Source: Bacteroidota bacterium
GTDB taxonomy: Bacteria > Bacteroidota > Bacteroidia > 2-12-FULL-35-15
Reading direction: 5' to 3'
DNA length: 64,000 nt
NCBI GenBank assembly: GCA_003151815.1
Contig: PLYN01000045.1
Location: 190,511-254,510 of the forward strand
Position 1 is the stretch's first letter. Each line of letters starts with the position of its first letter. Made by a program: the position numbers and the translations under genes. The notes under the pieces are model-generated. The model was not told the DNA's origin. It saw nothing but the letters and a program-made list of their open reading frames with translations, and did not search any database. Below, one piece after another: positions 31,811 through 38,598 of this stretch.

Positions 31811-32869
31811 TTAGTTAGCAGCCTTTAACACCATATTTTTCAAGGCTTCTATCCACTTCGGATGATCGTTCAAACTCTCTACCAAAGTAATTTTTTCACC
31901 ACCGTGTTCTCTAAAAATTTCGTTGTATTCTGTTCCGATTTCATAAATTGTTTCTAAACAATCAGCAACAAATGCGGGAGAAAAAACCAGTATTTTCTTT
32001 TTTCCTTCTTTTGCCTTTTGGGCAATCACCTTGTCGCTATAAGGCTTTATCCACTTATCGTCCAGACGTGATTGAAAAGTTGTTTCGTATTTTCCTTCCG
32101 GAATATTTAACTGTTTTACCAATTGCCGGGTGGTCTCAAAACAATTCGCACGATAACAATATTGATTATTTTTTGTGATAGAATCGCAACAAGCCCCCAA
32201 CTTGCAAGAGTTGGAACCATAGTGTGCTGCGCCTTTCATAATGTGCCTTTCGGGCAAACCGTGATAGCTGAATATAATATAATCGTAATCCCAGATCATT
32301 TTGTCCCCCTCTCCATGTGGAGAGGGGTTAGGGGTGAGGTACTTTTTTGCCACAGCAACACAAGCAGAAATAAAATCAGGATTGTCATAAAATTTAGAAA
32401 TCACTTCCACCGATGGTGTTACTTCCCAATGTTGCATTAAACGAATTGCTTCTGCAACTGATGAACCAGTACTGGAAGAAGCGTATTGAGGATACAATGG
32501 AATCATAATTATTTTTTCCACTTGCGCTAATCGCAATTTTTCTAAAGCCGATTCTAAATCTGGACTTTGGTAACGCATGCCCAATTCAACAATAAAATTA
32601 TCACCCAATTCTTTTTGTAACAACACTTTCATTTTATTGCTATTCACCAAAAGTGGTGATCCTTCTTTAGTCCAAATTTTTTCGTACAGTTTTGCTGATT
32701 TAGGTGCACGAAAAGGAACAATGATTCCGTTCACTAATAAAAAACGTCCAACAGGATGGATGTCAATCACACGCGGATCGTTTAAAAATTGTGTTAAATA
32801 TTTTCTTACATCCGATGTTTTTGGACTGTCGGGTGTTCCCAGATTTATAAGTAGTACGCCTGTTTTCAT
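31811..32869 (-). CDS. hemH: Ferrochelatase with an in-frame repeat insertion
   Basis: 352 residues. MKTGVLLINLGTPDSPKTSD is the family start; RYQSPDLESALEKLRL, IPLYPQYASSSTGS, the catalytic-His motif SYHGLPERH (His about 203), the Cys cluster CKLGACCDS and FSPAFVADCLETIYEIG follow. Inserts iron into protoporphyrin IX, inner-membrane associated. At residues 178-190 the sequence LTPNPSPHGEGDK is a translated dispersed palindrome (32303-32337) placed in a surface loop just before the catalytic strand. The gene otherwise looks intact. Confidence 0.95.
   Translation of the reverse strand: MKTGVLLINLGTPDSPKTSDVRKYLTQFLNDPRVIDIHPVGRFLLVNGIIVPFRAPKSAKLYEKIWTKEGSPLLVNSNKMKVLLQKELGDNFIVELGMRYQSPDLESALEKLRLAQVEKIIMIPLYPQYASSSTGSSVAEAIRLMQHWEVTPSVEVISKFYDNPDFISACVAVAKKYLTPNPSPHGEGDKMIWDYDYIIFSYHGLPERHIMKGAAHYGSNSCKLGACCDSITKNNQYCYRANCFETTRQLVKQLNIPEGKYETTFQSRLDDKWIKPYSDKVIAQKAKEGKKKILVFSPAFVADCLETIYEIGTEYNEIFREHGGEKITLVESLNDHPKWIEALKNMVLKAAN
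32303..32337. repeat. Dispersed palindrome inside hemH
   Basis: CCCCCTCTCCATGTGGAGAG then GGGTTAGGGGTGAGG. Inverted relative to the intergenic copy at 27062-27104. It is translated in frame as part of LTPNPSPHGEG. Confidence 0.85.
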
Positions 32870-32880
32870 ATAGTTTTGCG

Positions 32881-33244
32881 CTGTCAGTCTGAGCTTGTCG
32901 AAGACCGTGGGCTGGATTTTGATTTAGATAATTCTGGTAATAAATGAAATTCCCTTTTAATTAAAGCTTCTTCCTTTTTTCTACTCCAACCTTTTATTTT
33001 CTTTTCAAAAATAATTGCCGAATTGGGGTTATTAAACATTTCATAAAAAACAATTTTTAATGGTCGTCTTGTATATGTATAACAATTTCTATTTATACCA
33101 TTTTCATGCTCTTTAAATCGTTTTTCTAAATTATTTGTAACACCAATATAATATGATTTGTCTGAACATTCTAAAATATAAACATACATTGTTTTCATAA
33201 TCCACTCTTTCCATCGCACACTCTTCGACAAGCTCAGAGTGACA
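32881..33244. mobile_element. Candidate mini-element: GIY-YIG gene inside inverted repeats
   Basis: Left end 32881-32907 contains TGTCAGTCTGAGCTTGTCGA then AGACC. Right end 33219-33244 is the inverted equivalent (CACTCTTCGACAAGCTCAGA then GTGACA). Only the GIY-YIG gene lies between them. The right end is itself palindromic (CACTCT...AGAGTG). Target-site duplications were not recognised. Confidence 0.6.
32884..33198 (-). CDS. Solo GIY-YIG nuclease-domain protein
   Basis: 104 residues from MKTMYVYILECSDKSYYIGV; the Y-V-Y...Y-Y-I-G-V-T form of the GIY-YIG motif, then NNLEKRFKEH with the conserved Arg, and AIIFEKKIKGWSRKKEEALI with the catalytic Glu. Single-domain members occur in many copies in Bacteroidota, and their role is unknown. 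The last dozen codons (KSSPRSSTSSD) and the in-frame extension upstream to 33231 are translated repeat sequence, so the start at 33198 is preferred. It has the potential to act on the surrounding repeats. Confidence 0.82.
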   Translation of the reverse strand: MKTMYVYILECSDKSYYIGVTNNLEKRFKEHENGINRNCYTYTRRPLKIVFYEMFNNPNSAIIFEKKIKGWSRKKEEALIKREFHLLPELSKSKSSPRSSTSSD

Positions 33245-33269
33245 TCATACTATACCGAATTAACTATTC

Positions 33270-34673
33270 CTAAATATGCAAAGCTCTTTTACCTGTGGCA
33301 TCCAAACAGGCTTCTTTAAAGGATTCGGTGTATGTAGGGTGTGCGTGGCTCATGCGTGAAATATCTTCAGCACTTGCACGAAATTCCATCGCAACTACCG
33401 CTTCGGCAATCATATCAGCAACTCTGGGACCTATCATGTGAACACCCAATATTTCATCTGTTGCTTCATCAGCCAATACTTTTACAAAACCGTCGGTATC
33501 CATTGATGCACGGGCTCTTCCACTTGCTTTAAATGGAAAATTACCTGTCTTGTATTTTTTACCTTGCTCCTTTAATTGTTCTTCGGTATAGCCAACAGCA
33601 GCTACTTCCGGCCATGTATATACCACACCCGGAATTAGATTATAATTGATATGCGGTTTTTGTCCAGCCATAGTTTCAGCAACATAGGTTCCCTCCTCTT
33701 CTGCTTTATGCGCCAACATTGCACCTTTCACAACATCACCAATTGCGTATATGCCTTGCACATTCGTTTGTAAATGATCGTCCGTTTCAATTCTCCCCTT
33801 GTTATCCAACTTCACTCCTGCTTTATCTAAACCAAGATTATCGGTATATGGCTTACGTCCAACGGAAACTAAACAATAATCTCCTTTCAATTCCAGCTTC
33901 TCTCCTTTTGTATTTTCGGCTGTTACGGTTACTTCTTTTCCTTTTGCAACTGCTCCTGTAACTTTATGATTGAAGTAAAATTCAAATCCCAACTTTTTTA
34001 AACTTTTCTGTAATTCCTTTCCCAATGCGCCATCCATCGTACTAATAATTCCTCCGGTAAATTCAACTACTGAAATTTTTGAACCTAAACGCGCATATAC
34101 TGAACCTAATTCCAAACCAATTACTCCTCCGCCGATAATGATCATGTGCGTTGGAATCTCTGTTAATTCTAATGCTTCAGTTGAAGTGATGACACGTTTT
34201 TTATCAATTTCAATTCCAGGTAATGAAGACGGCTTTGAGCCTGTAGCGATGATTGTTTTTGATGTTTCTACTTGTATTTTTTTTTCATCAGCACCTGCAA
34301 TTTCAATGGTGTTTTTATTTACAAACGAACCATGACCGGTGAAAACAGTGATCTTATTTTTCTTCATCAAAAAATTAATTCCATCACATGTTTGCTTTAC
34401 AACATCTCCTTTTCGCTTGATCATTTGTTTTAAATTCACCTTTAAATCTTTCAGTTCAATTCCGTGTTCAGCAAATTTATGTGTTGCATCGTAATAATGC
34501 TCAGATGAATCCAACAGCGCTTTTGAAGGAATGCATCCAACATTCAGACATGTTCCGCCCAAGGTATTATAACGCTCAATGATTGCCGTTTTCATACCCA
34601 ATTGTGCACAACGGATTGCGGCAACATAACCTCCCGGACCGGAACCGATTATTGTAACATCAAATTTTTCCAT
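33270..34673 (-). CDS. lpdA: Dihydrolipoyl dehydrogenase
   Basis: 467 residues. FAD-binding GSGPGGYVAAIRCAQLG near residue 10, redox disulfide GGTCLNVGCIPSKALLDSSE, NAD-binding IIGGGVIGLELGSVYARLGS, YAIGDVVKGAMLAHKAEEEG, and the catalytic HAHPTYTESFKEA at the dimer interface. The E3 component of 2-oxoacid dehydrogenase complexes and glycine cleavage. No E1/E2 genes are nearby. Complete, with a standard length. Confidence 0.97.
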   Translation of the reverse strand: MEKFDVTIIGSGPGGYVAAIRCAQLGMKTAIIERYNTLGGTCLNVGCIPSKALLDSSEHYYDATHKFAEHGIELKDLKVNLKQMIKRKGDVVKQTCDGINFLMKKNKITVFTGHGSFVNKNTIEIAGADEKKIQVETSKTIIATGSKPSSLPGIEIDKKRVITSTEALELTEIPTHMIIIGGGVIGLELGSVYARLGSKISVVEFTGGIISTMDGALGKELQKSLKKLGFEFYFNHKVTGAVAKGKEVTVTAENTKGEKLELKGDYCLVSVGRKPYTDNLGLDKAGVKLDNKGRIETDDHLQTNVQGIYAIGDVVKGAMLAHKAEEEGTYVAETMAGQKPHINYNLIPGVVYTWPEVAAVGYTEEQLKEQGKKYKTGNFPFKASGRARASMDTDGFVKVLADEATDEILGVHMIGPRVADMIAEAVVAMEFRASAEDISRMSHAHPTYTESFKEACLDATGKRALHI

Positions 34674-34773: not shown

Positions 34774-36015
34774 CTATTTGTATTCTATAAATACATTTTC
34801 AGCTCCGGTTCCTTGCATGGTTGGTGTCTGATCAACTCCATGAATACTGCGGGCATAGTAAGGAACGCCTTCTGTTTTGTCGGAAACATATTCAAAAATT
34901 TCTGTGAAAGATAATTTATCGTCCTTGTTTTTATCGCTCTTATCTTTATCCTGTAAGGCTTTTAAGAAAAAATAGGTGAACATTCCATGCTGTTTTTCAG
35001 TATACCAGGAAGACACTTGTGTACCGGTGCTCGAAGTTAGCACAACGCAATTGTCAGCAACAGCAATAGGATTAGAGATGGTTATGGTAATCGGACTAAT
35101 ATTCTTAAAAATTTCTGCTCCTGAAAAACAAGCGTCCGTTATAACGGTAATACTTTTTGCATTGAGTTTAGAAATATTATTGTAAAATAAATCGAGGGAA
35201 TAACCTCCCTGCTCCACATATTGCGGGTCACAATCAATGGGAACAAAATAACCTTTTTTGTCATTCAGTCCGGGAGCACCATGCCCGGAATAATAAATAA
35301 ACACATCAGAAATTCCTTGCTTCATGTTGTTGAATAATTTTCCTTGCGGATTTTCCTTTGTTCCAAAAAAAGTTTCAAAGGAACTCTTTGTAGCATTTTC
35401 CAGGTAAAAAATATTTCCTTCGCTGTATCCTAACATATTGATTAAATAATTTTTCATTGATTGTGCATCATTTAAAGCGAAAGAAACCTTTTTAGTATGC
35501 TGATAATCTTTGTTTCCAATAATAACCGCGAAAGCATTTGGATTTTTATTTTTTGTTTTGATGTTGTAAAAGTCAATGTCTGATGTATTTTTATTACTAT
35601 TTGAATTTAATGATGTTTTATCAAGTACGAATTCGGTTGGTGTATATTTTGAATTATTAACTGGTTTAAAAACACTTTCTGCCAAAATTTTACAATAAAC
35701 AGTGGCACAAGAGGAGCAGATTTCAACTTTAACCATCCCTCTGATTTTCAAAAACTCTGCCTCAGATAATTCTATTTTTTTCTGGCAGTGTTTTAAATAA
35801 CCATCATTTTTAACCGAGACAATCTCAGCCCCACTTTCATCAACCAATGTAATACTGGTCTGATAAGAGTTGGATAAGTTATTATCAAACTCATTCAAAT
35901 GATAGGAAACATATATGGTATGTTTTTTAACGCTAAAATCCACATTGGTTATGTACTGAGAATAGCTGTGAAAAGAAAATAAAAAGGACAAGAAAATAAT
36001 TAGCTTTATTTTCAT
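34774..36015 (-). CDS. Secreted caspase-family (C14) protease A
   Basis: About 413 residues from MKIKLIIFLSFLFSFHSYSQ (signal peptide). Residues about 21-115 form a module shared with protease B: ITNVDFSVKKHTIYVSY ... LSEAEFLKIRG ... KVEICSSCAT ... ESVFKPVNNSK. The C14 domain follows (AFAVIIGNKDYQHTKKVSFA), with catalytic His245 in YYSGHGAPG and Cys296 in DACFSGAE, and then EKQHGMFTYFFLKAL. A C-terminal DKNKDDKLSFTE looks like an EF-hand type loop. No maturation or target information is visible. The longer frame to 36057 adds no signal-like start. Confidence 0.85.
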   Translation of the reverse strand: MKIKLIIFLSFLFSFHSYSQYITNVDFSVKKHTIYVSYHLNEFDNNLSNSYQTSITLVDESGAEIVSVKNDGYLKHCQKKIELSEAEFLKIRGMVKVEICSSCATVYCKILAESVFKPVNNSKYTPTEFVLDKTSLNSNSNKNTSDIDFYNIKTKNKNPNAFAVIIGNKDYQHTKKVSFALNDAQSMKNYLINMLGYSEGNIFYLENATKSSFETFFGTKENPQGKLFNNMKQGISDVFIYYSGHGAPGLNDKKGYFVPIDCDPQYVEQGGYSLDLFYNNISKLNAKSITVITDACFSGAEIFKNISPITITISNPIAVADNCVVLTSSTGTQVSSWYTEKQHGMFTYFFLKALQDKDKSDKNKDDKLSFTEIFEYVSDKTEGVPYYARSIHGVDQTPTMQGTGAENVFIEYK

Positions 36016-36080
36016 TGAATAATTCTTAAAGTTTAAATACGTTTTAATAGTTTTCAATTTAATTTTGTATGAAGTTTTAT

Positions 36081-36545
36081 TACACTGAGAGCCACCGAGA
36101 ATTCACAGAGAGCCACAGAGTTTAAAGTTTATACCTTTTTAGTCCATTCTTAAGTAATGTTACATTAAAATTTATAAGCAAACCTATCGTCATTTTCGAA
36201 AATTTCATATAGGTTAGAATCTGTGCTTCATGAACAGGATTGAAGGCATCAACTGTTTTTAATTCAATAATTACAGTATTTTCAACTAAAATATCTATTC
36301 TGTAGCCACAATCTAATTTTATTTCTTTGTAAACAACGGGAACGGGTTTCTGTTGTTCAACAATTAAACCGGAATTTCGCATCTCAAATACCAAACACTC
36401 TTCATAAGCAGATTCCAATAATCCTGGTCCAAGACATCTATGTACTTCAATAGCGCATCCTATTATTTTTTCAGTAATTTGGTTTATCTCCATAATTGTT
36501 TTACTCTGTGAAACTCTGTGAATTCTCCGTGAAACTCTGTGTAAC
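36081..36545. mobile_element. Candidate mini-element: GxxExxY gene inside inverted repeats
   Basis: Left end 36081-36120 (TACACTGAGAGCCACCGAGA then ATTCACAGAGAGCCACAGAG) is the inverted counterpart of the right end 36502-36544 (TACTCTGTGAAACTCTGTGA then ATTCTCCGTGAAACTCTGTGTAA). Only the GxxExxY gene is enclosed. It separates the two paralogous caspase genes. A gene-less version of the same repeat is at 52005-52073. Confidence 0.62.
36122..36493 (-). CDS. GxxExxY protein (PD-(D/E)XK nuclease-like)
   Basis: 123 residues. The name-giving motif is LGPGLLESAYEECLVFEMRN. The PD-(D/E)XK-like core is visible as DCGYRIDILVENTVIIELKT (D...E-x-K). The family is widespread, in multiple copies per genome, with no assigned function. 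Complete. The stop codon lies directly against the left inverted repeat and the start is nine bases from the right one. Confidence 0.88.
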   Translation of the reverse strand: MEINQITEKIIGCAIEVHRCLGPGLLESAYEECLVFEMRNSGLIVEQQKPVPVVYKEIKLDCGYRIDILVENTVIIELKTVDAFNPVHEAQILTYMKFSKMTIGLLINFNVTLLKNGLKRYKL

Positions 36546-36582: not shown

Positions 36583-38598
36583 TTATTTCAACTTAAAACT
36601 GCCCCATTTATCAATCTCTTCAGGACTGAACAAAACTTGCGGGCTTTGTTTTTTACTATTTGTTCTTATCGATTCCAATCCTACTTTTTCTTTTAAAAAA
36701 GAATCTAATTCTGAAAAAGAAACATCACCTTTCGTCTCTTGAAATTTCTTTAAAAGAAAATAAGTGAACATGCCGTGTTGCTTTTCTTTCCAAGGTAAAG
36801 ATGATTCTTCACCGGAACTTGCTGTAAATACTACAATATTTCCTTTCAGGTAATCTACCTTTGGTGTTATCCTAACCCCTCTGGCTGCTAATAATCCTGC
36901 CTCACGACCACCGCCACTAAAACAAGCATCCATAAAAACAGTTATTTGCTGTGAAGGAAACTCCGTCAGTTTTTGGTATAAAGATGAAAGTTTTATGGCA
37001 GATGAAATATTACTTCCGCTCACATCAACGGGAATTAAATAAGGTTCCTTTGTTGTCTCATCAGGCAGCCCGTGCCCGGCATAATAAACTATCACATTTG
37101 CTTTACCATTCGTAACCTGAATTAATTTATTGATCTTATCAATTGCCTGTGATAATTTACCGGCAGTTGCATTTAATAAACAAGTAATGTTTTTTTCAGG
37201 AACACCAAAAGTCTTCAGGAAATATTCTTTAAAAACCAAGGCATCATTACCGGCAAATTCAACGTTCATTTCGCTTGTAAGGTTTTGTTGAAAGCTTGAA
37301 TAATCTTCATTGCCAATAATTAAAGCAAATTTATTTTCATCCATATTATTATTAACCGGAATATTTTTATCTACATCTGATGTCAATGAAACATTGTCGA
37401 TGCTAATTGGTTTATCGTATTGCGAATTTACATCAATATGTTGAGTTTTAGATAATGTTTGCTCTAAAGACACTGTCAATGTTCTGTTATCACCATATTT
37501 TCTATAGTGTTCCGACATTAATATCCGTATTGGAATATCAGAACCATTATATCTTTTATTGGCAAAAAACTCATAATTAATGACTCTGCTTTCATTAGGT
37601 TTTAGAATAGGAATATTATAGTGTGTTTCGTTTGCAGGAAATACGTTTTCTGGATTTACAAAACCAATGTTAATATCTGAGGCGTCACCTTGACCTTTAT
37701 TTTGTATCACAAGGTTTAACGAAACAGTATTACCTAATTTTATTTTTCCTTCTTCATTGGTAGTAAATTTATAATCGGCAATAACAACATCAGGATGTTT
37801 AAATTCCTGAGTATTCAAAGAAATTTTAAATGGATCGGCATCAAAATGATTTCCTTCCCTAATAGTGATCTGAAATTCAGCTTTGTCGGAACCTAATTGC
37901 ATATTCCCGGAAACAGGGATACATATTGGCATTTCTTTGCCAGGTATCAAATTTCCACAGGTTTGCTCTTTTAAAAACTGAATTCCTCTAACGTTATTTA
38001 CTTCCTCTATTTCCGCAACAAGATTATATGCCTCACCTTTCCCATTATTTAATATAGTGAATTTTATTTCCGCATTTTCATTGGCATCTAACAGTTGATT
38101 GTTATTTCCTTTTTGGTCATTGAATATAATATTTGATACAATTAAATCGGCAGGAGCCGAAGGCTTTGGTATTGTTATTTCTTCAGCTATTTCAGTTTTT
38201 GAATTATTAATTGTTTTAAAAGCACTTTCGGAAAAATGTGTACATACAGGAAGCGTTGCACAAGACGAACAAACTTTAACTTTGATCTTTCCTTTAATTC
38301 GCGAAAACTCGGCTTCAGATAAATCTGTTTTTTTTGTTATGTGTTGCCATTCACCCCCATAATCAACTTCAGTTCCATTATGAATTTCCCTCTTAACTGA
38401 AATTTCAGAACCGTTTTCATCGATAATAGTTACTCTGGATTCAAAACCATTATCACATTTTTTATAATTCCAATTAAAATCATAAGTAACAAATAGTGTA
38501 TGTTTTTCAATGCTAAAATCTACATTACTTATGTCCTGTGAATAACATAGAACAGAAAACGATAAAAAAAACAGAAATAATATTTTTTTAGTTTTCAT
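36583..38598 (-). CDS. Secreted caspase-family (C14) protease B with CARDB-like domains
   Basis: 671 residues: signal peptide (ILFLFFLSFSVLCYSQ); N-terminal module shared with protease A (ISNVDFSIEKHTLFVTY ... LSEAEFSRIKG ... KVKVCSSCAT ... ESAFKTINNSK) to about residue 135; two CARDB/Ig-like domains (LLDANENAEIKFTILNNGKG and KLGNTVSLNLVIQNKGQGDA) to about 380; then the C14 domain (KFALIIGNEDY) with His509 in YYAGHGLPD and Cys559 in DACFSGGG. EKQHGMFTYFLLKKFQ matches protease A, so they are paralogues. It follows the DUF4384 gene by 34 bases and is probably co-transcribed. Confidence 0.88.
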   Translation of the reverse strand: MKTKKILFLFFLSFSVLCYSQDISNVDFSIEKHTLFVTYDFNWNYKKCDNGFESRVTIIDENGSEISVKREIHNGTEVDYGGEWQHITKKTDLSEAEFSRIKGKIKVKVCSSCATLPVCTHFSESAFKTINNSKTEIAEEITIPKPSAPADLIVSNIIFNDQKGNNNQLLDANENAEIKFTILNNGKGEAYNLVAEIEEVNNVRGIQFLKEQTCGNLIPGKEMPICIPVSGNMQLGSDKAEFQITIREGNHFDADPFKISLNTQEFKHPDVVIADYKFTTNEEGKIKLGNTVSLNLVIQNKGQGDASDINIGFVNPENVFPANETHYNIPILKPNESRVINYEFFANKRYNGSDIPIRILMSEHYRKYGDNRTLTVSLEQTLSKTQHIDVNSQYDKPISIDNVSLTSDVDKNIPVNNNMDENKFALIIGNEDYSSFQQNLTSEMNVEFAGNDALVFKEYFLKTFGVPEKNITCLLNATAGKLSQAIDKINKLIQVTNGKANVIVYYAGHGLPDETTKEPYLIPVDVSGSNISSAIKLSSLYQKLTEFPSQQITVFMDACFSGGGREAGLLAARGVRITPKVDYLKGNIVVFTASSGEESSLPWKEKQHGMFTYFLLKKFQETKGDVSFSELDSFLKEKVGLESIRTNSKKQSPQVLFSPEEIDKWGSFKLK

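Follow-up and report, generated by a model that had tools for sequence, protein, structure and literature searches.

The question raised by this locus is whether a small nuclease gene, enclosed by inverted repeats and situated between the lpd and hemH genes, is a mobile unit, and to which known type of element such a unit would be closest. The earlier note had described a 364-base block with the same core in inverted orientation at both ends and a GIY-YIG gene as its only content, and our examination of the window (the whole 64-kb stretch of DNA analysed) bore this out. The sequence TCTGAGCTTGTCGAAGA is present in exactly two copies in the window, at 32888-32904 (+) and 33222-33238 (-), as compared with 0.01 expected from shuffles. 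The full inverted arms span 32882-32916 and 33210-33244 (35 nt, 86% complementary), and the sole ORF between them codes for a protein with a GIY-YIG domain (match to PF01541, E=5.5e-19). The context is a solo GIY-YIG gene between two inverted 24-nt repeats, with the following features.

31811..32869, minus strand: hemH (ferrochelatase; PF00762), the downstream neighbour
32882..32905, plus strand: left REP-like repeat TGTCAGTCTGAGCTTGTCGAAGAC, with its GTCA tag outward at 32883-32886, holding the stop codon of the gene
32884..33201, minus strand: gene for a single-domain GIY-YIG nuclease of 105 aa, counted from the ATG at 33201 (MKTMYVYILE...SSTSSD*)
32906..32916, no strand: left inverted arm, extension toward the gene
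33210..33220, no strand: right inverted arm, extension toward the gene
33221..33244, minus strand: right REP-like repeat TGTCACTCTGAGCTTGTCGAAGAG, inverted, with its GTCA tag outward
33270..34673, minus strand: lpd (dihydrolipoamide dehydrogenase-like; PF07992 and PF02852), the upstream neighbour

The end of the element lies 12 bp from the ATG of hemH, and the longest frame of the GIY-YIG gene begins at TTG 33231. In Pfam, the protein gave GIY-YIG matches only, plus a weak match to the related T5orf172. Its nearest solved structures, as judged from sequence matches, are UPF0213 BH0048 (1zg2, 5e-12) and EF2693 (1ywl), and it shares by sequence the single-domain fold of the UPF0213/YhbQ-like proteins. 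The motif residues Y, Y, G, R, H and E are invariant in an alignment of 14 diverse relatives, and the window protein has the catalytic Tyr, Tyr, Arg and Glu of the GIY-YIG superfamily, as represented by PF01541 and these invariant columns. The coding frame does enter the left repeat, as had been claimed: the stop codon TGA is read from TCA at 32884-32886, within the left GTCA tag, and the C-terminal residues SSTSSD are therefore encoded by the repeat. A repeat-encoded tail of the same kind was found in five relatives. Separately, the neighbouring hemH carries, at about 32300-32345 of the window, a further palindromic repeat (CCCCTCTCCATGTGGAGAGGGG...) in frame, adding about 14 residues (LTPNPSPHGEGDKM); the closest relative, G030, has it too, and most of the other genomes compared lack it.

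The flanking repeats are REP-like, with an outer GTCA tag, a covarying stem and many gene-less copies. The 2.53-Mb host genome (G000) contains 20 copies of their 13-nt core and none of a reversed control, and most of the other copies are gene-less and form the close inverted pair TTTCGACAAGCTCAATATGAC-n10-GTCAGTCTGAGCTTGTCGAAGA. This paired form folds strongly (-17.2 kcal/mol, z=-5.0), and the two window repeats taken singly are weak hairpins, whose energies as ssDNA (-0.9 and -3.5 kcal/mol) do not clearly surpass those of shuffles. Across 49 copies of the window subfamily, the outer stem pair was GC in 24, CG in 15, TA in 8 and TG in 2, with no mismatch, and the next pair inward was paired in 48. 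The tag is TGTCA in the window and (C/T)GTCA in relatives; the two members of a pair come from a single subfamily, each with its tag pointing outward, and the inverted match fades about 8-12 nt beyond it. As a side observation, 66-bp tag-outward repeat pairs were seen in G018, G032 (contigs C34, C37 and C44) and G027 (C45), several of them at contig ends, which suggests a further multi-copy sequence that breaks assemblies.

To what extent the association extends beyond this window was assessed by counting enclosed genes. The host genome has five GIY-YIG genes. Three of them are solo, and inverted repeats enclose each of the three; the other two solo genes bear a different repeat subfamily, TGTCAGTTCGAGC...GTCGAGAAC. 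Homologues were found in 48 of the 59 related genomes. When inverted repeats were scored in the 300 bp on each side (score at least 16), 57 of the 94 genes in Bacteroidota relatives were enclosed on both sides, as compared with 3 of 99 other ORFs of the same loci (p=6e-20). Similarly, two-sided enclosure was found for 52/79 genes versus 6/210 other ORFs in Alphaproteobacteria (p=2e-30), and for 21/30 versus 1/33 at loci drawn across Pseudomonadota. The scan of named genomes used a narrower alignment, since that of the 14 diverse proteins was too varied, and it covered 80 loci, all from Alphaproteobacteria. In a plasmid collection, 12 of the 14 records, from alpha, beta and gamma proteobacteria, cyanobacteria and Bacteroidota, had inverted repeats, two of these cases (Planktothrix and Spirosoma) being weaker. 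A clear CGTC-tagged example is S. meliloti, where one of the two repeats is CGTCATCCTCGGGCTTGACCCGAGGATCCA and the opposite one closely resembles it; further ones are Neisseria (dRS3 type), Aeromonas and Azospirillum (in the sufB/sufC gap). For about one gene in three, no two-sided pair could be detected, and the few distant, low-scoring UPF0213/YhbQ-like relatives L053, L071, L085, L089 and L095 showed no GTCA-tagged inverted pair. Overall, enclosure amounted to about 1-4% in controls versus 60-70% for the GIY-YIG genes. The two-sided association of repeat and nuclease is thus beyond chance and beyond this window; the clade is usually enclosed, and the repeats do not flank other genes equally often, so that neither of the signs of random association named in the earlier note was found. 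Chance pairing was rejected on the basis of shuffles and of two control sets, one of arbitrary placements and one of real ORFs.

The repeats and nucleases also diverge together. Repeat similarity followed nuclease similarity with a Mantel r of 0.654, uncorrected for phylogeny, which none of 5000 permutations reached, and among pairs from the same genome (n=23) the correlation was r=0.80. Different nucleases of one genome therefore bear different repeats, and similar nucleases across genomes bear similar repeats; the repeat type tracks the nuclease type and not the host. Presence of the repeats and presence of the nuclease likewise go together. In same-genus genomes, the GTCATCCCGTGC repeat was found in 7/7 genomes with the cognate nuclease clade, defined by at least 70% identity (3-88 copies), versus 4/29 without it, uncorrected for phylogeny. 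Among 299 Pseudomonadota genomes, at least two copies of CGTC-1 repeats were found in 35/84 genomes with the nuclease versus 13/215 without it (p=1e-12; odds ratio 11; phylogeny uncorrected), the highest count being 709 copies. Two REP-rich Pseudomonadota genomes in which no nuclease of the clade was detected, G096 with 152 CGTC-1 copies and G112 with 63, may hold relics of a lost gene or may be counter-examples. In the S. meliloti record, the exact repeat was found only beside the GIY-YIG gene.

The earlier note had proposed that empty sites be sought in close strains, and such sites were found at three gaps, with junctions that are not base-exact. Five same-genus genomes carry the GIY-YIG element in the lpd-hemH gap, the gene being broken in two of these, and the gap is empty in many others, including the closest relative, G030. 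In three other genomes, the same gap holds a GxxExxY nuclease element instead; since it hosts both element types, this gap (window 32870-33269; L124, L125 and L134) looks like an insertion hot spot. The sufB-sufC gap contains the element in Azospirillum lipoferum, and it is absent in five other Azospirillum. In the Sphingobium fnrL-regulator gap, seven plasmids carry the element and two others carry neither element nor palindrome. Sphingobium TomTYG64 (L259, ~1000) has, exactly where its relatives carry the whole element, a single palindrome, CGTCACCCCGGGTCAAGCCCGGGGTGACG, tagged at both ends, which resembles a fusion of the outer halves of both repeats and may be a deletion scar or an ancestral landing site. 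Decaying copies were also observed, with in-frame stops in G019, G015 and G040 and a truncated copy in G031. No base-exact junctions were recovered for the Azospirillum and Sphingobium gaps, because the intergenic gaps have diverged, and the search for near-identical loci with which to compare the Novosphingobium and Rhizobium elements found none. Target-site duplications were absent from 90 elements, in which direct repeats were not clearly in excess at any of the offsets and lengths tested; an IS-like insertion was ruled out on this ground.

The parallel case with a different nuclease fold that had been pointed out proved to be real; it lies 3 kb from the GIY-YIG element. At 36081-36545 of the window, a GxxExxY gene (TIGR04256, PD-(D/E)XK) is enclosed by periodic, CACAGAG-type inverted repeats of an approximately 10-nt unit (TCACAGAGNNN). 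Enclosure of this kind was found at 21/26 related loci versus 0/28 other ORFs, and the family has up to 20 matches per genome, many of them broken. It is a further nuclease-repeat pair, unrelated to the GIY-YIG one. The GxxExxY element is inserted between two genes whose proteins look caspase-like (34774-36057 and 36583-38598; YYSGHG and DACFSG motifs, identified by eye).

Among known systems, the nearest arrangement is the REPtron, in which REPs with a GTAG tag flank a RAYT (TnpA_REP) gene (Nunvar 2010, PMC2817692; Quentin 2018, PMC6006769). In both, a single dedicated gene is bracketed by its own tagged hairpin repeat in inverted copies, further repeats stand elsewhere without a gene, as do inverted pairs, each gene type has its repeat type, and presence is patchy. 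The block has a gene flanked by inverted cognate REPs, but it has neither the HUH/Y1 tyrosine transposase, in place of which stands a GIY-YIG nuclease, nor the GTAG tag, in place of which stands (C/T)GTCA. The second relevant group is that of the CGTC/TGTC-tagged REPs, which include Neisseria dRS3 and Rickettsia RPE-4/RPE-6 and for which the 2013 survey describes no transposase gene flanked by the repeats (Di Nocera 2013, PMC3733652), whereas a dedicated gene is present here. The flanking repeats of the Pseudomonadota relatives share the tag, the stem and the CCA-like tail of this group, and an unpaired tag stands at one end of the repeats both in the window (TGTC) and in these relatives (CGTC). 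The repeats are also multi-copy and dispersed, as the core copies in the host genome show. The stem-loop typical of the group, 8-9 bp with a 4-5 nt loop and a short, mostly CCA tail, was found in relatives (e.g., CGTCATCCTCGGGCTTGACCCGAGGATCCA, with a 9-bp stem and a 5-nt loop) and not in the weakly folding window repeat. The latter represents a divergent family, with a TGTCA tag and a short bulged stem, unlisted in the survey text consulted (PMC3733652), and because of this stem it is not a strict member of CGTC-1 to CGTC-4.

The earlier note had pointed to the homing that GIY-YIG nucleases drive, but intron homing is not the nearest known arrangement. Free-standing GIY-YIG homing endonucleases of the I-TevI and SegA types resemble the element in their catalytic domain, in being small selfish-looking genes and in their filled and empty sites; they differ in that the element has no separate DNA-binding domain, no intron and no conserved-gene target, and has inverted repeats of its own. 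Neither an intron or intein location nor homing into a conserved gene was found, and simple homing into a conserved gene was rejected because the element is intergenic (lpd/hemH) and carries its own repeats. MITEs and insertion sequences are similar in the pairing of autonomous and non-autonomous forms with common inverted ends, but the element has no DDE or HUH transposase and no target-site duplication. A search of open-access PMC full text, with subscription journals and preprints outside its scope, yielded no paper linking GIY-YIG to REP, dRS3 or CGTC repeats, and the RepRanger paper (2025) does not mention nucleases; the novelty of the link is therefore provisional.

Several other explanations were considered. 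The repeats may be spread by a RAYT-type transposase or by replication slippage, the nuclease gene being trapped cargo or using the repeats as safe landing sites. Repeat-rich genomes without a detected nuclease agree with this, and the lone TomTYG64 palindrome could be such a landing site as well as a deletion scar; we nevertheless consider it unlikely, as the subfamily of the repeat goes with that of the nuclease even inside one genome, and the 2013 survey found no transposase gene between CGTC repeats (PMC3733652). An alternative idea is that the nuclease is a domesticated enzyme that resolves REP cruciforms for the host, stays beside its substrate and spreads nothing. Structure-specific nucleases with a GIY-YIG fold, such as Slx1 and UvrC, provide a precedent, and the correlation between REP and nuclease presence would be expected. 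However, patchy presence, broken copies and filled and empty sites look selfish, unlike a maintained host gene, and several different nucleases occur together in a single genome (e.g., seven matches in G018), so that we regard this idea as rather improbable.

It is still less probable, indeed hardly credible, that the repeats are only ordinary transcription terminators or mRNA hairpins bracketing small intergenic genes by happenstance. Unrelated hairpins do lie at the same place in Sphingobium plasmids without the element, but other ORFs of the same loci are not bracketed, and the repeats of a pair share one subfamily, tag outward, that tracks the nuclease. Finally, as REPs lie between genes and are numerous in some genomes, they might have built up around orphan genes by chance. 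The low enclosure in controls and the subfamily matching already contradict this explanation, with which the co-divergence of nuclease and repeat is also hard to reconcile, and we give it almost no weight.

Alongside the observed two-sided association, stem covariation, co-divergence, co-occurrence and filled versus empty sites, we propose that the block is probably a REPtron-like element with a GIY-YIG nuclease in place of the RAYT transposase, and that the gene-less repeats, whether single or in close inverted pairs, are its non-autonomous relatives. The minimal self-spreading element suggested earlier is retained in so far as the block acts as a unit, being present or absent between the same genes and recurring elsewhere with cognate repeats that co-diverge; it is not a one-off, and belongs instead to a widespread REP-type system. 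As the most likely mechanism, we infer that the nuclease would recognise the hairpin with its GTCA tag, probably while replication leaves it extruded or single-stranded, and would nick or cut beside it. Through host repair or strand switching, new intergenic sites would then receive a copy of the repeat or of the entire repeat-gene-repeat unit. The lack of target-site duplications fits the fact that cleavage by GIY-YIG enzymes involves no covalent intermediate.

These nucleases are, in addition, strong candidates for the partner of CGTC-tagged REPs. Whether the nucleases of this clade are the dedicated makers and spreaders of CGTC/TGTC REPs in general, including the dRS3-type and rhizobial ones, and thus a second REP system with a chemistry unrelated to RAYT/GTAG, is in our view evenly balanced. 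If the partnership is true, REP-type selfish repeats would have arisen at least twice, with unrelated enzymes. CGTC-tagged REPs are widespread, and the main survey of them, from 2013, left the propagating enzyme, if any, open (PMC3733652); a dedicated nuclease makes this question testable at the bench. It may also provide a biological role for the many proteins whose sole annotation is 'GIY-YIG nuclease' or 'excinuclease ABC subunit C'.
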